The notes under the pieces are model-generated. The model searched no databases and was not told the origin of the DNA. It worked only from the letters and a program-made list of their open reading frames with translations. A DNA stretch of 64,000 nt, from NCBI GenBank assembly GCA_027365345.1, contig DAHXNO010000105.1, positions 1 through 64,000 of the forward strand. Direction: 5' to 3'. This document shows positions 42,130 to 53,832 of this stretch, piece after piece (the stretch's first letter is position 1; every line of letters begins with the position of its first letter). Position numbers and translations under genes: made by a program. Origin of the DNA: Granulicella sp. Its GTDB lineage: Bacteria; Acidobacteriota; Terriglobia; Terriglobales; Acidobacteriaceae.

Positions 42130-45100
42130 CTAGCGAGGGTCCTGGAGAAACTTCTCTGCATTCTTGGACATGAGTGCCGTACGTTCCAGCTTGTCCCAGT
42201 TGAAGCTTCGGCCATCAATGGCGCGCTTGACTGTGCGGATGAGTACCCAGGAGAAGAGCTGGCGGTAGGTGAACCGCTGGATCCAGATGTGAACCAGCAG
42301 CCATGCGTCTCCCTTGCTGGCGGGGTGTTTACGTTCCAGCATAAAAGCCAGGGCAGAGGTGGCAAAGTCAATGAGAAGGAAGGCGGCGAAGAAGCTGATG
42401 AGCTTATAGAGATCCGAGGGATTGGTGGTGCTGGGGTGGAAGTGCTTGTCGATGAAGTAATGAATGACCCCGGCGACGAACATAAGGTCGATCAGCGGAG
42501 AGACCAAAGGCAGAAGGATCTGAAAGACGACGATATTGGGCAGGGCGAAGAGTCCCATGGCGAGACGGTTTGCGATGGCCCCGCGGTGCTTGAAGACGGC
42601 TTGCAGAATGCCGAAGGACCAACGGAATCGTTGGCGAGCCAAGTCATTGGCGTTGGCTGGAGCTTCGGTGAAGGCCAGCGCCCGATCCTCGTAGATGACG
42701 GCGTAGCCCTGCTCGAGCAGGTTCATGGTGAGATCGGCGTCTTCCGCTACGGTATCGGGGTGGTAGCCGCCGCCGGCTTTGACAGACGAGGTGCGCCATG
42801 CGCCGATGGCTCCGGGAACGACGGTGACGACATCGAAGAGGTCCAGGGCGCGGCGCTCAAAGTTCTGGCTGGTGATGTACTCGAGCGCCTGCCAGCGCGT
42901 CCAGAGGTTTACCCGGTTGCCGACCTTCGCGTTACCCGCTACTGCGCCGATCCGGGGGTTGGCAAAATGGGTGACCAGGCGGCTGATGGCATCGTGAGCT
43001 ATCACGCCGTCGGCGTCGATGCCGATGTAGACTTCCTCATCGTCGCGTATCTGGACGAGCCCGAAGTTGAGCGCGTCGGCCTTGCCGCCGTTCGGCTTGC
43101 TGAGGACTGTCAGGCGGCCGGCAGCGATCTCTTTGGCATAGGTATCGGTGGCGATCTTTGCGGTGCCGTCGGTGGAACCATCGTCGATGACGATGATGCG
43201 GATGTTCTTATAGTTGGACATCAGCACGGAGCGGATAGTGCGGGCGATCACCTTGGCTTCGTTGAAGGCCGGGATCAGGACGGCGACGCGGGGTTGGTAG
43301 GCCGGGGTGGCGAAGTCTTTGCGTTTGCGGAAACGGTCAATGGTGGCAAACAGGCCGATGATGACCAGGCGGACGCTCATCAGCACGTCGCCGATGAAAA
43401 AGACGCTAATGACGAAGTGGTTGAAGAAAGAGATGAGGGCGAAGGCAATGGAGTCGACAAAGGCGTAGTAGCGCTGGCGGCCTTTGATGGGGGGCATGAC
43501 CTCAGCGGAGGTCTTGCCGATCAGGGCGGAGACGGGAACGATGGCATAGCCGTGGGCGCGAAGGGCTTGAATGAGCACTGGAAGCGCGGCTACGGTGGCC
43601 GAGCGATCACCACCGCCATCGTGCATCAGGATCACGGAGCCGCGTGTCCAAGGCTTGGTATTGAACTCTGAGATCTGCTGGAAGACGCTGTTGACGATCT
43701 CCTGAGGCGTCTTACGCGGATGCACGTCCCAGTCGTTGGTGTCGATTTTATCGCCGACGATTACGTAGCCGAGACGCTGGATGGCCTGTACCGGAGCAGC
43801 CTGGTCGTTGGTGTCCGGTTCCTGATCAATGGAGTACGGAGGACGGAAGTAGACCGGCTGAACGCCCAGTTCGGCGGCGAAGAGGCGTTCGGTGAGATTG
43901 AGCTGGAGCACCACCTGGCGCTGTGAGATCTCAGAGATATCCGGATGGGAGTACGTGTGGTTGCCCACCTCGTTTCCATCGCGGTAGACACGCTTCATCA
44001 GGCCGATGTTGTCCTGAGCCTCATCTCCGATCATGAAGAACGTGCCGACGACGTGATACTTTTTGAGGACCGCGAGAATCTTCGGCGTCCATTCGGGGTC
44101 TGGGCCGTCGTCAAAGCTGAGTGCGACCTCTTTGGGGTGGTAGCCGTATTGGTTGAGCGTGTAGGGGAGAGGGTAGGAGTCCATGGTCTCGGCTACGACG
44201 CTCAGGAACGGTTTGGGGATCGTCGGGTCGTCGTCCATGGTGAGGGTGCGGTGACCGTTTTGGGGAGGACTAGTGACACGTAGAATGTCGCCGTCCCCTT
44301 CGGTATCCACATCCTGCCCGGGCGCAACCTGAGCCAGATCCTTCACCGGATCGGCCTTGAGCGGGTGGTCCCAGATCTTCCACAGGGAGTCGTCTTCCAG
44401 GCCGAGGCGCTGAATGGCGAAGGTCTGGATGCCGAGAGCTTCAGCGACCCGCATCTGATTGAGGGCAGTCACAGCGTCCAGGAACCAGACGTTGTGCTTT
44501 ACCCTGGCGTCCTCGTCGATGTAGGAGAAGTGAGGGTTAAGCGAGTTGGGGTCAAGGCTGATGGTGGCGTCAGCGTCTGATGCAGCCTGCCATGCCTCCT
44601 GGGTGGAGAGCATGGTGGTGGTGTAGACGGTCTGCGCCGACTGGGCATCCTGACGAACCGGTCGCCCGCGGCGGTTGTTTGCGGGCGGAGGCAGGGGGTT
44701 GGTCCAGTCGTATCCGTATCCGCCGATGGAGCAGATGATCTTCTGCAGCGGAACGGCCTTCATCAGAGCGCGCAGATTGTTTTCAAACTGGTCCTGGCCG
44801 GCGATGGGTCCGGGATCGGTGCCCCACTGATGCTCGCCGTAGTTCATCAGGACCAGACCGTCGGAGTGGGCTGCGAGGTACTTGAGATCCAGGCTGCCGG
44901 GATCCACAGGGACGTTGATGTACAGGCGCAGGTTTCGGGAGTGCAAGTCGGCGTAGAGAGCTCCCACCAACTGGCTGTAAGCTACCTGGGCGTCGTCCGG
45001 GAGGGCCTGAAAGCCGAGGTCCAGGCCGCGGTAGCGGGTGTTGGTGTTCAGAAACAGATCGATCTGGTGAATGAATCGGGCGCGCGCCTGAGGGCTCAGC

Positions 45101-45696
45101 AAGAACTGCTCGACGTTGGGCTCAAAGATGCCCTGCGTCGGGCTGTAGTTGTTTACCATCGGGAAGATCTCAGTGTCTTCCCGGGCGTCCTGGATGGTGC
45201 GGAGGATCTTGTTCTGATGGTCAACGCCGTGGACGCCGGAGGAGTCAACGACGGCGAAGGGGGTCTCATCCGAGGTGTAGGCGGTGAGCGATCCGTCCGG
45301 AGTGAGGACGTGGAGCCACTCGGGAAAGAGGATATCGATCTGTTTTACGTGCTCCTTGAAGGAGGCGTAGCTGCCCGGGTCAAGATCTGTATAAAAGGCG
45401 GCGCGTAGACCTTCGCCGTGGTTCAGAATAACGTCAGAGGGCTTGAGGTTCGTCTTTCGATGAGCCGAGCGGTTCAGCTTTTCACGGGAACGCAGTTCGG
45501 GGGCCGGAGGGTTGGAGAGAGCCCGGTAACGCCGAGTGACCGAATGAAAATTCAAGCCATGCATGGGCTTCATTCTGACCAGGCCCACCACGAAGACGAT
45601 CCCGACGGCGGCGCCTAGAAGAGCCAGCACGTCAAGTATGCGCCGCAATCGTTTCCAGCGTTTGCGTTGCGGATCGTAGAAGACTTGGTTTCTCAT
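42130..45696 (-). CDS. Three-module envelope polysaccharide protein: GH18-like, polysaccharide deacetylase (CE4) and GT2 synthase
   Basis: A 1188-aa inner-membrane protein. One N-terminal helix (VLALLGAAVGIVFVVGLV) leads to a GH18-like domain (about 80-440, YRGLDLGFQALPDD; INVPVDPGSLD; VLMNYGEHQWG). A CE4 domain follows with all metal and catalytic motifs: ALSFDDGPDP, NHTYSHPD, RPPYS and VILMHDGGGD. Two membrane helices then precede a processive GT2 domain: VLIPAFNEAKV, IDDGSTDGT, GIDADGV, EDADLT and QRFRW, with several C-terminal helices. The GH18 catalytic Glu (DxxDxDxE) appears to be Gln in LDLGFQ. It likely makes and trims a PNAG- or chitin-like polymer across the membrane. ATG 45696 is preferred over 45732. 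Confidence 0.9.
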   Translation of the reverse strand: MRNQVFYDPQRKRWKRLRRILDVLALLGAAVGIVFVVGLVRMKPMHGLNFHSVTRRYRALSNPPAPELRSREKLNRSAHRKTNLKPSDVILNHGEGLRAAFYTDLDPGSYASFKEHVKQIDILFPEWLHVLTPDGSLTAYTSDETPFAVVDSSGVHGVDHQNKILRTIQDAREDTEIFPMVNNYSPTQGIFEPNVEQFLLSPQARARFIHQIDLFLNTNTRYRGLDLGFQALPDDAQVAYSQLVGALYADLHSRNLRLYINVPVDPGSLDLKYLAAHSDGLVLMNYGEHQWGTDPGPIAGQDQFENNLRALMKAVPLQKIICSIGGYGYDWTNPLPPPANNRRGRPVRQDAQSAQTVYTTTMLSTQEAWQAASDADATISLDPNSLNPHFSYIDEDARVKHNVWFLDAVTALNQMRVAEALGIQTFAIQRLGLEDDSLWKIWDHPLKADPVKDLAQVAPGQDVDTEGDGDILRVTSPPQNGHRTLTMDDDPTIPKPFLSVVAETMDSYPLPYTLNQYGYHPKEVALSFDDGPDPEWTPKILAVLKKYHVVGTFFMIGDEAQDNIGLMKRVYRDGNEVGNHTYSHPDISEISQRQVVLQLNLTERLFAAELGVQPVYFRPPYSIDQEPDTNDQAAPVQAIQRLGYVIVGDKIDTNDWDVHPRKTPQEIVNSVFQQISEFNTKPWTRGSVILMHDGGGDRSATVAALPVLIQALRAHGYAIVPVSALIGKTSAEVMPPIKGRQRYYAFVDSIAFALISFFNHFVISVFFIGDVLMSVRLVIIGLFATIDRFRKRKDFATPAYQPRVAVLIPAFNEAKVIARTIRSVLMSNYKNIRIIVIDDGSTDGTAKIATDTYAKEIAAGRLTVLSKPNGGKADALNFGLVQIRDDEEVYIGIDADGVIAHDAISRLVTHFANPRIGAVAGNAKVGNRVNLWTRWQALEYITSQNFERRALDLFDVVTVVPGAIGAWRTSSVKAGGGYHPDTVAEDADLTMNLLEQGYAVIYEDRALAFTEAPANANDLARQRFRWSFGILQAVFKHRGAIANRLAMGLFALPNIVVFQILLPLVSPLIDLMFVAGVIHYFIDKHFHPSTTNPSDLYKLISFFAAFLLIDFATSALAFMLERKHPASKGDAWLLVHIWIQRFTYRQLFSWVLIRTVKRAIDGRSFNWDKLERTALMSKNAEKFLQDPR

Positions 45697-45711
45697 CGAT
45701 TGAAAAGGAGC

Positions 45712-45724
45712 TCTTCTTAAGATA
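45712..45724. promoter_or_regulatory. TCTTCTTAAGATA element, shared with the ygfZ upstream region
   Basis: An exact 13-nt match to 18399-18411, here 16 bp upstream of the GH18/CE4/GT2 start and about 77 bp upstream of the divergent membrane-protein gene. It centres on the palindrome TCTTAAGA. Function unknown. Confidence 0.3.
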
Positions 45725-45800
45725 ATACGCATTCCAGACGGAACAGAACCGCAGGAGCGGAATCCTGCCTTCGGCTCGAATGTAGATAGGATGCAGAGAA

Positions 45801-47261
45801 GTGGGCGAACGGAGACCGAGATACGGCTGGGGTGCGGCGCTGGCGGCAGGCGGATTGCTGCGTCTGCTGTTCTTCTATCGTCTGCGTCCGATGATCGGCG
45901 GGGATTCGCTCATCTACAGCGAACTGGCGCGTGATCTGTTGCGGCGCCATATCTATGCTTTCTCCGGAACGCCGCTTCAGCCTACGCTGATCCGTCTGCC
46001 TGGGTATCCGCTGTTTCTTGCCGCGTGTGATGCGGTCGGCGGCGGGGCGCACCCTGCGTTGGCGCTGTGGGTACAGATGCTTTTGGATCTGCTGGGATGC
46101 GCTGTGCTGGGATTACTGGCTGCGCGGCTGGCGGCAAGGGCGGGTGGAGATGCGGGAGCAGATGCAGAGCGGCGTGGGGCGACCCCTGCCCGAGTTGGCC
46201 TGGCGGCGGTGTGGCTCTCCGCGCTGTGCCCGTTTACGGCCAACTACGCGGTTGCCCTGATGCCTGAGTCCTTGAGTGTCTTTTGCGTGGTGACCACGCT
46301 CTTCGCTCTGGAGAGATGGGAGGCTTGTTGGAACGGCGGGGACGGGGCTCGCAGAGGAGAGGCCAAGGTTTGGACGGTGGTGATCGGGTGCTCTCTGGCC
46401 TGGGCCGTGTTGCTCAGGCCGGATGAGGGGTTGTTGGCGGCCGCGGTGTTGCCGGCGATGCTGTGGGCCGGATGGCGCGCCGGCGCGCGGGAAGGGCTGG
46501 GTTTGGCCAGACGCGTTCTTCCAGCGACGGCGGCTGGGCTGCTGGTTCTGCTGCCGATGCTGGCTTGGGGCGTGCGCAACTGGAGGGTCTTCCATTTGGT
46601 CCAGCCGTTGGCGCCGCGTTATGCAGAGGATCCGGATGAGACCCCGCCGCTGGGATTTTATTGCTGGTACCGGAGTTGGGCAATTGAGTACAAATCGAAC
46701 CTGGATATCTACTGGAGGTACGACGATGACCCGATCAGGCTCAGCGACCTGCCCGCGCGAGCGTTCGATAACGCGCAACAGAGATTACAGACCGAGGCGG
46801 TTTTCGATCGCTACAACAACTTACTGACGGCAACTCCGGAGTTGGACGCGGCCTTCGCTCAGATTGCGGATGAGCGGATTACAGAACATCCGCTGCGCTA
46901 TTACGTGGTTTTGCCCGTGGCGCGAGAGTTGGACATGTGGCTGCGGCCACGGCTGGCGTTTATGGCGATGCCGGTGGACTGGTGGGAGTTTGGCCGCCAT
47001 CCGAGAGAGTCTGCGGAGGAGACGGCCTATGCGCTGCTGAACGCGGGCTACCTGGCGTTGGCGCTGGTAGGCTTGCTGCGTTGGGAGCGGAGACGCTGGA
47101 ATGGCAGGGGGGTGGTGGCCTTTGCGATGCTTGGGTTTGTGGCGCTTCGCGTAGCCTTGCTGCTGACCCTGGACAACTCTGAGCCGCGCTACACGCTGGA
47201 GTGCTTTCCAGTGGTGATTGTGCTGGCGGCGCTGGCGCTGTTACCCCAGTTCAATGGTTGA
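45801..47261 (+). CDS. GT-C-like (ArnT/PMT type) integral membrane glycosyltransferase, putative
   Basis: A 486-aa protein with about ten hydrophobic segments (LRLLFFYRLRP, VQMLLDLLGCAVLGLLAARL, LLVLLPMLAWGVRN, GYLALALVGLLRW). The first periplasmic loop contains GDSLIYSELARDLL, an acidic motif after the first helix as in GT39/GT83-like enzymes, and RLPGYPLFLA. These features fit a polyprenyl-phosphate-sugar-dependent transferase. Its divergent neighbour makes an envelope polysaccharide, which is consistent. Start is GTG 45801. Its end overlaps the convergent LolA-like gene by 11 bp. Confidence 0.7.
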   Translation: MGERRPRYGWGAALAAGGLLRLLFFYRLRPMIGGDSLIYSELARDLLRRHIYAFSGTPLQPTLIRLPGYPLFLAACDAVGGGAHPALALWVQMLLDLLGCAVLGLLAARLAARAGGDAGADAERRGATPARVGLAAVWLSALCPFTANYAVALMPESLSVFCVVTTLFALERWEACWNGGDGARRGEAKVWTVVIGCSLAWAVLLRPDEGLLAAAVLPAMLWAGWRAGAREGLGLARRVLPATAAGLLVLLPMLAWGVRNWRVFHLVQPLAPRYAEDPDETPPLGFYCWYRSWAIEYKSNLDIYWRYDDDPIRLSDLPARAFDNAQQRLQTEAVFDRYNNLLTATPELDAAFAQIADERITEHPLRYYVVLPVARELDMWLRPRLAFMAMPVDWWEFGRHPRESAEETAYALLNAGYLALALVGLLRWERRRWNGRGVVAFAMLGFVALRVALLLTLDNSEPRYTLECFPVVIVLAALALLPQFNG

Positions 47262-47958
47262 CGATGCTGGTGTGGGAGTTCTTTTTGATCTCAAAGGTCT
47301 TCATGTCAATGTGGCTGTTGTACTTGATATCAGCATAGTTGCAGGTGCGGCGATCGTCGTTGCTGAGGTAGAAGATCTGGCGCAAGGAGAGAGCACGGGT
47401 GGGATCCACCCAGATGGTGATGTGGGTGAAGTTTTTTTCGCCAGGATCTTTGCTGGTGAGGTCTAGTTTCTCGGTTCGGATCTGCCTGGCGCCCTGAGGG
47501 AGGGTCTCTGTGCCCAGATCCTGAATATTCCAGGATTTTGCCAGATCCGTGCCACTGCCTCCGAAGCCGAGCGTGATGTAGCGCTCTTCCTGCGCCTGGT
47601 TGGAACCGGCGTGCAGCAGCGTGAGCTGATTGACGCCAGGGTCGAAGAGTTCCAGCAGCCCATCCTTGTATTCCACGACCTTTTGCGGTTTACCGCCTGG
47701 ACCATCGATGACCACGCCCATCTGAATAGCTTTGTCTTTGCGCAGGAAGTAGATGGAGCCGGTCTGGGAGGTAGTGTCGCGAATGACGCGCTCGTAATAC
47801 TGGCAGTCCATTTGGGCGCGGGCGCTGCGGAACTCCGCGCTGGCCTGATTCATTTGCTGCAGAATCGTGCTGAGATGGGAGGAGTTGGACTGCGCAGAGA
47901 GTGCAAGGGGAAGGCTGGTTAGGGCCAGGGCTGCGGTGAGCATCGGGCGGCGAAACAT
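47251..47958 (-). CDS. LolA-like outer-membrane lipoprotein-sorting protein
   Basis: A 235-aa exported protein with signal peptide (PMLTAALALTSLPLALSAQ). The mature part follows the LolA-like fold with STILQQMNQASAEFRSARAQM at the start, a beta-rich region (TGSIYFLRKDKAIQMGVVIDG, KVVEYKDGLLELFDPGVNQLTLL) and WVDPTRALSLRQIFYLSNDDRRTCNYADIKYN. This is the LolA-related family of outer-membrane lipoprotein carriers, of which several paralogues occur per genome in this group. ATG 47958 is preferred; the track adds 16 residues. Confidence 0.75.
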   Translation of the reverse strand: MFRRPMLTAALALTSLPLALSAQSNSSHLSTILQQMNQASAEFRSARAQMDCQYYERVIRDTTSQTGSIYFLRKDKAIQMGVVIDGPGGKPQKVVEYKDGLLELFDPGVNQLTLLHAGSNQAQEERYITLGFGGSGTDLAKSWNIQDLGTETLPQGARQIRTEKLDLTSKDPGEKNFTHITIWVDPTRALSLRQIFYLSNDDRRTCNYADIKYNSHIDMKTFEIKKNSHTSIVNH

Positions 47959-48152
47959 GGACGTTAGACTCCTGCAACGGCTGCTGGGGTTGGATCGGTT
48001 CAGCACGGGCGAACTCTGGATTGCTGCTGCACGCTTGGAAATACCGGGTTGGGCAGCGTCGCTATAAATCTCTTTGTACCGGCTCCAGGCCCAGGCTATG
48101 GTGGGCTGTCTGGTAAGTGGTTCAGGGCCAGAGCGCGCGCAGCATGCGTAAT

Positions 48153-48530
48153 CTAGCGGACGATGGTGGCGTCATAGGCGACGACGTGACCTTTGGCATC
48201 GACTACGGGGGAGTACTTTTCGACAGTAACTTCGCCGGAGATAGGCTCGACGACATTGAGGATCGCCTGGCGCAGGGCAGCGTCGGATTTTGCGCCGCGC
48301 AGGTCATCGACACGGATCTCATAGACGAAGGTTGGCTCTTCGTCGGCCCCGCGCGCCGCCTTTACCAGCACCTCACTGTGCTGCAGCGGAACCTGCTGGA
48401 CGGGTCTGTCCTTGAAGTCAATGAAGCGCGGAGAGAGAAAGAGGAAGAGCAGAATCAGGGTGACCATCACGTCATAGTGAAAGCTGCCGCGCTCGTAGGT
48501 CCAAAAGATGTAGCTGCGCAGGGTATTCAT
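48153..48530 (-). CDS. Small membrane protein coupled to serS
   Basis: A 125-aa protein with one membrane helix ([17 protein letters not shown]) after a short N-terminal segment ([14 protein letters not shown]) and a soluble domain outside it. The start overlaps the serS stop by four bases (ATGA), implying coupled translation. I do not recognise a family. The short, well-defined topology and coupling argue that it is real. No link to seryl-tRNA synthesis is obvious. Confidence 0.7.
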
Positions 48531-49858
48531 AGTGCACGTCCGAAGGATTGGCGGGTGATGACGGTTTCTCCGTTCATATAAGGAACCAGGGCCTGGGGAA
48601 TGCGGACCGAGCCGTCGGCCTGCTGATAGTTCTCCAGGATGGCGAGGTAGGTGCGGCCAATGGCCAGGCCGCTTCCGTTGAGGGTGTGGACGAACTCAGC
48701 TTTACTGGCTCCGGCGGGGCGGTAACGAATGTTGGCGCGGCGAGCCTGGAAGCTCTCAAAGTTGGAGCAAGAGGAGATCTCACGGTAGGTTTGCTGGCCA
48801 GGAAGCCATACCTCCAGGTCGTAGGTCTTGGCGGAGCTGAAGCCCATATCCCCGGTGCAGAGAAGCATGCGCCGGTAGGGAAGGCCGAGGCGTTCGAGGA
48901 CCGTTTCGGCGTGGCGGGTGAGCGCCTCATGCTCGGCGTAGGAGTCTTCTGGACGGGTGAACTTGACCAGTTCGACTTTTTGGAACTGATGCTGGCGGAT
49001 CATGCCGCGCGTGTCCTTGCCGTAGGAGCCGGCCTCAGAGCGGAAGCAGGGCGTGTACGCTGTGAAGCTGATGGAGCCGCAGGAGAGATCGATGGCCTCA
49101 TCACGGAAGATGTTGGTCACCGGGACCTCGGCGGTCGGGATCAACCAATGGTCGCTCTCCTGCAACTCGCCTGGGATGTACGGGCCTCTGTCGTCGCAGT
49201 GAAACAGGTCCACGGCGAACTTGGGGAGTTGGCCGGTGCCGAAGAGCGAGCAGGAGTTGACCAGGCTGGGAGGCAGAACTTCGACGTAGCCGTGCTCCTG
49301 GGTGTGCAGGTCCAGCATGAAGTTGGCCAGGGCGCGCTCCAGGCGAGCGCCAGAGCCGAGTTGCAGGACGAAGCGCGCTCCGGAGATCTTGGCCGCCCGC
49401 TCGAAGTCCAGGATGCCGAGCTGCTCGCCGATCTCCCAGTGAGGCCTGGCTGGGAAGTCAAAGTTGGGGATCTCTCCCCAGGTCTTCTGACAGATGTTTT
49501 CGTGCTCAGAGGCTCCGACAGGCACGGAGGGGTGGGGAAGGTTGGGCAAGGACTCCAGCAGCGTGCGTAATTTCTGGTCAGCCTGGGCTGCGAGCGCCTC
49601 CAGTTGCTCGGTTTTCTCTTTGAGCGCGGAGGTCTGGGCAGCGATCAGAGAAGTGTCCGCGCCCTCTCGCTTCAGACGGCCGAACTCCGCGGAGAGGGCG
49701 TTGCGCTGGGCTTTGAGTGTCTCCGCTTCGGTGATGGCCGAACGGCGCTCGGCGTCCAGAGTGGAGAATCCACGCAGAAGGGAAGGGTCTATGCCGCGCC
49801 GTCCCAACCTCTCTTCGACCAGCGGAAGGTTGCCTCGCACAAATGCCAAATCATACAT
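48527..49858 (-). CDS. serS: Seryl-tRNA synthetase
   Basis: A 443-aa class II synthetase that charges tRNA-Ser in the cytosol. The N-terminal tRNA-binding coiled coil is at about 30-105 ([21 protein letters not shown]). Class II motif 2 is [21 protein letters not shown] and motif 3 is [18 protein letters not shown], with TAEVPVTN for the serine pocket. Length and motif order match standard bacterial SerRS. It is followed by a coupled small membrane protein and is divergent from purH. Confidence 0.97.
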
Positions 49859-51590: not shown

Positions 51591-51750
51591 CGGCGGGAAG
51601 ATGGCGGAAAAGGAGGAACGCGATCGGGAACTGGTGCAATCGCATCCAAACCTTGTAATGTACCGTCTAAGGGAGAGATAGAGCGAAGCCCGACGTGTCT
51701 CGCCAAATGCCCAGGGTTTTCCCTTGGGATTCCGAAGTTCAGGATTCTTC

Positions 51751-53832
51751 ATGAGCCGATTTGTTATCCGCACCACTCTCGCCTCTTTTGCCGTTGCGGT
51801 CTTCGGCTCGCCTCTCTTTGTCTGCGCGCAGGCCTCCAGCGCTGCGGCGAATGCTGCGGCCAAGAGTACGCAGCCGGTGGATTACGCCGAGTCTTACTAT
51901 CACTACGGCATGGCCAAGCTTTATGAAAATGATGCGGTAGCCACGGGCCGGCAGGATCTGGCCACCCAGGCGATCGAACAGTACAAGCTGGCTCTGGATG
52001 CCGATCCTAACTCACGCATTCTGCAGGATGGAGTGGCTAACCTGTACTTCCGGCTGGGCAGAATCCGTGAGGCGGTGGCGGCGGCGCAAGACCAGATTGC
52101 CAAGCATCCAGACGATATTGATGCCCACCTCCTGCTGGGTCACGTCTATCTGCGGTCCATTGGGGATGGGCAGGGGCCCGAGACCCAGCAGATGTTGCAG
52201 GCCGCCATCAAGGAGTATGAAACCATTGTTTCCCTTAAGCCGGGAGACTTGGAGAACCGGCTGTTATTGGGGCAGTTGTATAACCTGAATCACCAGACAT
52301 TGAAGGCCGATGAGCAATACAAGGCTGCGCAGAAGATCGATCCGACCAATGAGGATGTCGTGCTGGACATTGCGCGTCAGTATTCCGAACAGGGCGATCT
52401 GAACCATGCTGCGAAGGTGATTGAGGCCGTGCCCCAGAGTGACAGAACCGCACGGATGGACTTTGCGCTGGCCGGTCTTTACGACCAGTTGAAGCGCCCC
52501 AAGGATGCTGCCACGGCGTATCAGGCCGCGCTGGAGCAAGACCCAGGAAACACGAGTGCGGAGCGCGGGCTGGCTACCGCGCTGACCCGAGCCGGCGAGA
52601 CGGCTGAGGCAGCGAAGGTGAATGCAGAGATTCTGGCATCCAATCCGGACGACCCCCAGGCCCTGATGCGTGAGGGAGAGATGCAGCGTCAGAAGGGTGA
52701 GTTCGCCCAGGCGCTGGCCACCTTCAAGAAGGTGGAGGCTCAGATCTCCAATGGAACCGATCCTGAACTGATCTATAACGAGGCGCTGACCTACGACGGG
52801 CTGGGCCGTTTTCCAGAGGCGATCAAGGCTGTGAAGCTGTTGCTGAGTGTTACTGCGTCTCCGGACGGCCAGTACAGCGGCGATTCGGAGCAGAATCGTG
52901 CGGCGTTGTTGCAGTTGCTGGGTAGCGTGGAGCGCGAGGCCGGCGATGAAGATGGCGCCCTCAGCGCCTATCAGCAGATGGCGGCGCTGGGCGGAAGCTT
53001 TGCGGCCCAGGGGTATGACTCTCAGGTGGATGCCTACCGCGATGCTCACCAATGGGCCAAAGCCTTGCAGGTAGCAGCGGAGGCGGCCAAAGCCATGCCG
53101 GCCAACCATGATGTGCAACTTACCTACGCTTTACAACTGGCCGACGCGGGCAAGCTTGCGGAGGCGGTGAAACTGGCGCGCGCACAGTTGACCGGGACGC
53201 CGGATGATCGCGACGTGTACTACGACCTGGCTGAAATGTATGTGCGCGCCAAGCGCTGGAAGGATGCATCCAGCGCCTTTGATCAGGCGGCCGTGCTGGC
53301 GACCAAGCCTGATGACAAAGTGATCCTGTATTACTTCCGGGGCGATGCGGAGCTGCGCGAGAAGGCTTACGATGACGCGGAAGCGGACTTCCGCAAGGGC
53401 CTGGCGATCTCGCCTGACAATGCATCCATCGAGAATGATCTGGGGTATATGTATGCCGACCGCGGCATCAAGCTGGACCAGGCGGTCGCCATGCTAAAGA
53501 AGGCGGTGGCCTCCGATCCGCAAAACTACGCCTTTCTCGATTCGCTCGCCTGGGCTTACTACAAGCAGGGCATGTATGCGTTAGCCGAAAACTATGAGCG
53601 CAGGGCAGTGCAGCGGATGCCTGACGATCCGACGGTTCTCGCGCATCTGGGCGATATAGAGGCGAAGAACGGCAAGCTGCAATTGGCGATCGACGATTGG
53701 CAGAAGTCGCTGCAGGAGTTCCAAACCTCGCTGGCGCCCGACATTGATTCGGCCGATGTGACGGCGGTGCGGCACGATCTGGAGAGTGCGCGGATTCGTC
53801 TGGCGCATCTGGGTGAGGCTCCTGCCAAGTAA
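51751..53832 (+). CDS. Exported tetratricopeptide-repeat protein
   Basis: A 693-aa protein with a signal peptide (TTLASFAVAVFGSPLFVCAQA) and TPR motifs through most of its length, for example QAIEQYKLALDADPNSRILQDGVANLYFRLGRIREAV, KEYETIVSLKPGDLENRLLLG and AEADFRKGLAISPDNASIENDLGYMYADRG. Such proteins act as periplasmic or outer-membrane scaffolds. The neighbouring genes (purH, dgt) do not suggest a partner. ATG 51751 begins the signal peptide; the track start 51724 adds nine residues. Confidence 0.88.
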   Translation: MSRFVIRTTLASFAVAVFGSPLFVCAQASSAAANAAAKSTQPVDYAESYYHYGMAKLYENDAVATGRQDLATQAIEQYKLALDADPNSRILQDGVANLYFRLGRIREAVAAAQDQIAKHPDDIDAHLLLGHVYLRSIGDGQGPETQQMLQAAIKEYETIVSLKPGDLENRLLLGQLYNLNHQTLKADEQYKAAQKIDPTNEDVVLDIARQYSEQGDLNHAAKVIEAVPQSDRTARMDFALAGLYDQLKRPKDAATAYQAALEQDPGNTSAERGLATALTRAGETAEAAKVNAEILASNPDDPQALMREGEMQRQKGEFAQALATFKKVEAQISNGTDPELIYNEALTYDGLGRFPEAIKAVKLLLSVTASPDGQYSGDSEQNRAALLQLLGSVEREAGDEDGALSAYQQMAALGGSFAAQGYDSQVDAYRDAHQWAKALQVAAEAAKAMPANHDVQLTYALQLADAGKLAEAVKLARAQLTGTPDDRDVYYDLAEMYVRAKRWKDASSAFDQAAVLATKPDDKVILYYFRGDAELREKAYDDAEADFRKGLAISPDNASIENDLGYMYADRGIKLDQAVAMLKKAVASDPQNYAFLDSLAWAYYKQGMYALAENYERRAVQRMPDDPTVLAHLGDIEAKNGKLQLAIDDWQKSLQEFQTSLAPDIDSADVTAVRHDLESARIRLAHLGEAPAK

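Follow-up and report, generated by a model that had tools for sequence, protein, structure and literature searches.

A GH18-CE4-GT2 membrane protein of Granulicella with a GH18 module predicted to be non-cutting

A three-module gene and its divergent neighbour

We analysed a 64,000-nucleotide stretch (the window) of contig DAHXNO010000105.1 from a Granulicella sp. On the reverse strand it carries a gene for a three-module membrane protein, P0001, and divergent from this a gene for a GT-C-like membrane glycosyltransferase. The features are listed below, with the evidence for each in brackets.

42130..45696 (-): three-module membrane protein GH18(pseudo)-CE4-GT2, P0001, 1188 aa (ORF reading, domain searches, homologue starts)
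45574..45663 (-): N-terminal transmembrane helix, residues 12-41 (AlphaFold helix of low-to-moderate confidence and hydrophobic sequence; putative topology)
44362..45411 (-): module with a GH18 fold, residues 96-445, predicted to be catalytically inactive (phmmer, fold match, alignment)
45013..45015 (-): D228 position, the Asp of DxE, Gly in P0001 (Asp in 88/88 E-type homologues)
45007..45009 (-): E230 position, the catalytic Glu, Gln in P0001 (Glu in 88/88 E-type homologues, Gln in 16/16 of its own clade)
44836..44838 (-): D287 position, beta-6 MxYD motif, Gly in P0001 (Asp in 88/88 E-type homologues)
44410..44412 (-): W429 position, beta-8 Trp of the -1 subsite, Gln in P0001 (Trp in 88/88 E-type homologues)
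43513..44151 (-): CE4 (NodB-type) deacetylase module, residues 516-728 (Pfam, PDB matches, alignment)
43333..43479 (-): long helix 740-788, predicted to cross the membrane from CE4 (periplasm) to GT2 (cytosol) (model; putative topology)
42592..43314 (-): GT2 synthase module, residues 795-1035 (Pfam, NCBIfam, alignment)
42217..42564 (-): C-terminal helices 1045-1160, which probably cross the membrane three times (full-length model)
45697..45800 (no strand): short intergenic region between the divergent genes, possibly a shared regulatory region (coordinates)
45801..47261 (+): GT-C-like membrane glycosyltransferase, divergent from the P0001 gene (weak PMT_2, adjacency, co-occurrence, Asp35)

Translation of the window gave a P0001 reading frame free of internal stops, which we judged real and intact. 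There is an alternative upstream ATG at 45732; in the alignment, homologues begin at the Met at 45696. The initial annotation had placed three modules in one membrane polypeptide, and all three were recovered by Pfam, phmmer and fold searches: CE4 as PF01522 (E = 1.7e-30, residues 520-629), GT2 as PF00535 (E = 6.6e-29, residues 806-965), and GH18 by the comparisons described below, the N-terminal third having no GH18 match among the Pfam and NCBIfam matches listed. From the full-length AlphaFold model (pTM 0.58), with its helix 12-41, helix 740-788 and three terminal helices, we infer that the N-terminus lies inside, that GH18 and CE4 are periplasmic and that GT2 is cytosolic.

A protein search over 396 genomes of the host phylum found nearly full-length homologues in 46 of the 47 host-family genomes and in 26 other genomes of the phylum; plasmid homologues were found in Sphingomonas, Sphingobium, Novosphingobium, Deinococcus, Prevotella, Sulfitobacter and Limimaricola. 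Homologues have the same modules in the same order as P0001, at 31-42% identity over nearly the full length, and public records label them merely 'glycosyltransferase'. The initial annotation's concern that relatives might not share the module order is therefore settled. Since such homologues occur across the family, the phylum and other phyla, the architecture is not new, and the layout is widespread rather than unusual. We take the CDD entries cd06549 ('GH18_trifunctional') and cd10962 ('CE4_GT2-like') to be entries for such trifunctional proteins. In the literature searched, we found no description or characterised example of a GH18-CE4-GT2 fusion. Fusions of pgaB-like loci to GT domains, in operons without pgaA, are mentioned in PMC7112194.

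In four Sphingomonadaceae loci (L114, L115, L117 and L123) the three-module gene lies near an MprF (lysyl-phosphatidylglycerol synthase/flippase) gene, with AcvB/VirJ also nearby in three of the four; this neighbourhood suggests a link to cationic cell-surface modification. A Kocuria rosea plasmid (L122:5899-9204) has a two-module CE4-GT2 gene, and the adjacent, convergent gene is annotated as a chitinase, perhaps a hydrolase acting in trans.

The GT-C gene starts 104 bases from the P0001 gene, and a promoter scan of 45697..45800 found no sigma-70-like site. GT-C glycosyltransferases are polytopic membrane proteins whose first external loop carries an acidic residue; the product of this gene has a weak, below-cut-off match to PMT_2 and an invariant Asp35. 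The gene adjoins the synthase gene in essentially every host-family locus with enough flank. It is also divergent in L077 and L082, and downstream on the same strand in L088, L090 and L094, loci of other families; in G017, G103, G112 and G291, none of which gave profile rows, it is on a contig other than that of the synthase. A single-sequence search produced matches in 13 of 28 carriers of the three-module gene and 0 of 19 non-carriers, and in a profile search 10 of 27 carriers had a strong full-length match (17 had none), against 0 of 33 non-carriers. The Fisher values (5e-4 and 1e-4) are indicative only, since the genomes were hand-picked, five of the ten matched genomes had supplied profile rows, and the counts are phylogenetically non-independent. 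G365, the sole sampled host-family genome without the synthase, is also without the GT-C gene. No pga-type gene adjoins the P0001 gene. The GT-C gene, which the initial annotation mentioned in passing, is no incidental neighbour: on the sequence comparisons, it is a conserved and likely, non-obligatory partner of the synthase gene.

The neighbouring genes for SerS, a LolA-like protein, ALDH and LuxR were compared within the host family, where they are conserved; we treated this as synteny, and they were set aside as partners. Upstream in the window (47251-49858), LolA-like, small membrane-protein and serS genes follow an order that much of the family shares, which is probably no more than synteny. 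A comparison with PHROGs gave nothing informative.

The synthase and deacetylase modules and their product

Alignment confirmed the earlier claim that the CE4 motifs are all intact: P0001 has the DD, HxxxH, RPPY, DxW and LH motifs, with D529/D530, H580/H584, R618, D655 and H692 in place. The GT2 module, first read as a polymerase, bears this out with the marks of a processive synthase, namely DD (838-839), DxD (894-896), ED (985-986), QxxRW (1022-1026) and membrane helices. The catalytic residues of both modules are conserved in all sequences of the Gln clade (described below) bar one, L043, which has D530G. This change affects the metal-binding pair of CE4 and may reflect either a sequencing error or lost deacetylation.

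Compared with the NCBIfam synthase models, GT2 scored best with PgaC/IcaA (TIGR03937) at 166 bits, with NodC at 81 and CelA at 56; the best score is far below the curated cut-off of 422 bits, which weakens an assignment to PNAG. In a PDB search the CE4 module was nearest to PgdA-type and chitin deacetylases, and it is closer to PgdA/NodB types than to PgaB. A better characterised analogue of P0001 than the Pga proteins is Streptomyces MatB, which also fuses CE4 to GT2 and without which a PNAG-like polymer is not made (PMC5972031, PMC4391728). Like P0001, it joins in one polypeptide a CE4 outside the membrane, nearest PgdA/NodB, and a PgaC-like GT2 inside; unlike P0001, it has no further (GH18) module, has MatA as its working partner and lies beside an IcaC-like rather than a GT-C gene. 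Escherichia coli PgaB/PgaC and staphylococcal IcaA/IcaB also pair a synthase with a deacetylase (and PgaB has a glycosidase-like barrel), but as separate proteins. In the host genome, a profile search found no match to PgaB (TIGR03938), and the PgaA model gave generic TPR matches only, far below cut-off. No PgaA-like exporter of Gram-negative PNAG systems was therefore recognised in this genome, which weighs against the reading of P0001 preferred below. The best match to the PgaA model was a 702-aa TPR protein in the window (51724-53832; 42.7 bits, TPR part only).

By analogy, we consider the product of P0001 most likely to be poly-GlcNAc of the PNAG kind. A rather unlikely alternative, compatible with a pseudo-GH18, is that P0001 makes a cell-envelope glycan or a short beta-1,4 chito-oligomer instead of a PNAG-like exopolysaccharide. 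This would suit a CE4 nearest to PgdA/NodB, which act on beta-1,4 GlcNAc, and the sphingomonad genes found near lysyl-phosphatidylglycerol genes; however, the GT2 score with PgaC/IcaA is about twice that with NodC, and MatB, with a like mix of similarities, makes PNAG (PMC5972031).

The N-terminal module and its active site

A phmmer search of the PDB matched the N-terminal module to the GH18 proteins chitinase 5jh8 (4e-18), YdhD 3cz8 (5e-12), 4q6t (2e-7) and SleL (1e-6), in alignments that place Gln230 in the catalytic Glu column. An AlphaFold model of residues 80-478 (pLDDT 79, pTM 0.81) was compared with PDB structures: the best 50 matches were GH18 throughout, and PgaB was absent from them. 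The full-length model also matched 5jh8 (TM 0.86); over the two models 5jh8 reached TM 0.82-0.86 (E = 5e-21). In the full-length model strand beta-4 spans residues 224-227 and Gln230 follows it, in the place of the catalytic acid. The structural check proposed in the initial annotation thus returned a GH18 barrel with Gln, and no Glu, at the catalytic position.

Sequence and model both argue that residues ~96-445 are GH18 in family and fold, to the exclusion of the GH153 family of PgaB. A PgaB/GH153 identity was rejected on these grounds and because the PgaB model had no genome match, and with it goes the suggestion of a PgaB-like hydrolase barrel: in PgaB the GH153 barrel is C-terminal to CE4 (PMC5933820), whereas the GH18 module of P0001 is N-terminal to it. 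The nearest solved relatives by sequence and fold (5jh8, YdhD and SleL) stand alone, whereas the P0001 module is fused to a synthase and lacks the catalytic Glu. The chitinase-like proteins SI-CLP and YKL-39/40, which appear among the fold matches, have a non-hydrolysing GH18 fold; unlike P0001, they are secreted animal lectins without a synthase fusion.

The active site of GH18 enzymes is marked by the motifs DxxDxDxE and MxYD and by the beta-8 Trp. We aligned 108 sequences, 88 of them E-type homologues outside two exceptional clades. D228, E230, D287 and W429 are present without exception in the 88. In a clade made up of Granulicella and related metagenome genomes (16 sequences, related and hence non-independent), residue 230 is always Gln, and there are further losses of D287 (to Gly) in 10 sequences, W429 in eight and D228 in five. 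All four residues are replaced in P0001, whereas other GH18-CE4-GT2 proteins, except the Rhodobacterales group, keep the DxE, MxYD and Trp. These four are the only departures of P0001 from 139 (nearly) invariant E-type positions; none falls in CE4 or GT2, and 17 of the 21 family-invariant GH18 positions are retained. The hypergeometric p for four active-site departures among the 21 is 1.7e-4, indicative only because D287 and W429 were chosen after the comparison was seen. The exchange of the catalytic Glu of DxxDxDxE for Gln, proposed at the outset, is therefore real, and the lost residues support the accompanying suggestion that the Gln-type module probably no longer hydrolyses. Sequencing error or a single-strain quirk was rejected, since 16 distinct sequences, drawn from separate genomes, all carry Gln.

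In a tree built from the CE4-GT2 part alone (GH18 columns excluded), a branch supported at 100 separates the 16 Gln sequences from the rest, and three plasmid sequences from Rhodobacterales, which have Ser at 230, form another group. The residue-230 label needs two changes on this tree, with E-to-Q occurring once at the base of the Gln clade; the deeper branching is unsure because the tree was quick and the outgroup branches long, but the Gln clade is well supported. The catalytic Glu appears to have been lost separately in the Granulicella clade and in the Rhodobacterales group. As judged from these sequences, disabling of the GH18 active site is here clade-specific, stepwise and targeted, within a trifunctional synthase that is otherwise common and conserved; it is this, along with the parallel Rhodobacterales loss and the conserved GT-C partner, that is new.

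In the Rhodobacterales group with the separate Glu loss, a DUF3131 gene lies directly 3' of the three-module gene (L119:9015-11552, L121:8961-11450 and L124:9015-11531), with a 4-bp overlap in L119 and in L124. In Sulfitobacter sp. OXR-159 the three-module gene is broken into two open frames (L120:5806-9219).

To gauge selection, we calculated dN/dS by Nei-Gojobori, with pooled ratios taken from unsaturated pairs. Between P0001 and its closest relatives, GH18 was the fastest evolving of the three modules (0.065-0.07, with ~0.03 for CE4 and 0.03-0.05 for GT2 in the same pairs). The Gln clade had a pooled GH18 ratio of 0.205 and the Glu relatives one of 0.202; all these figures are rough, since many pairs approach saturation at synonymous sites. 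By this rough measure the GH18 module is still under purifying selection, without sign of decay. That the gene as a whole has become non-functional was rejected, as the frame is intact and dN/dS is low.

A proposed role for the GH18 module

The sequence comparisons argue that the GH18 module is kept for something other than GH18 catalysis; with the cutting residues gone and selection persisting, it probably grips or guides polymer. Our preferred reading, to which we give a probability of roughly 0.6, is that P0001 is a PgaC/MatB-like synthase-deacetylase whose GH18 became a non-cutting domain that binds or guides polymer. In brief, P0001 would sit in the inner membrane, where the cytosolic GT2 would polymerise a hexosamine polymer, most likely PNAG-kind poly-GlcNAc, and pass the chain across the membrane; the periplasmic CE4 would strip acetyl groups from it; and the Granulicella-clade GH18, a pseudo-glycosidase with its barrel kept and its groove probably kept, would hold, guide or present the nascent chain rather than cut it. 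The GT-C protein may act in the same pathway, e.g. as a periplasmic enzyme that attaches sugars taken from a lipid-linked donor. Two other GH18 domains are encoded on other contigs of the host genome, so hydrolysis could occur in trans.

It is unlikely, in our estimate, that the module serves only as a scaffold for folding or as a structural spacer, placing CE4 without itself cutting or binding polymer. Such a spacer could well lose the DxE Asp, the -1 subsite Trp and two further active-site residues, and the faster evolution of GH18 than of CE4 or GT2 is what would be expected of an inert part, and so weighs against the preferred reading; however, the module is under purifying selection just as strong as that in relatives whose active site is intact, and it keeps most of its family-invariant positions. 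That the module is still a hydrolase, via another acid or altered chemistry, is improbable: E288 adjoins the lost D287, and the fold and most conserved positions are kept, but residue 288 varies within the clade (Glu 8, Gln 7, Gly 1) and, with D228, D287 and W429 also gone, the parts for substrate-assisted GH18 catalysis are missing. Least credible is the merger of PgaB (CE4-GH153) and PgaC into one polypeptide that the initial annotation had in mind, of which the functional likeness to a PgaC/MatB-type synthase-deacetylase survives, along with an equal set of synthase, deacetylase and hydrolase-like domain and a GT2 nearest PgaC/IcaA, but not the structural likeness to PgaB, given the different module order, the GH18 barrel, and PgaB's absence both from the PDB matches listed and from the genome.

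Returning to a non-cutting, polymer-guiding GH18, we would extend this only speculatively to a wider scheme, in which a built-in pseudo-chitinase serves as a clamp or guide that feeds the fused deacetylase and has arisen twice, once in Granulicella-type Acidobacteria and once in Rhodobacterales, whilst a dedicated acidobacterial GT-C decorates the chain, the whole being a pathway for a modified cationic hexosamine polymer without the known Pga export parts. The Gln clade separates two questions that are tangled in synthase systems, i.e. whether a GH module is there for cutting the chain or for holding it, and it offers comparable natural proteins that either have or lack the catalytic centre, together with a named partner gene, the GT-C.
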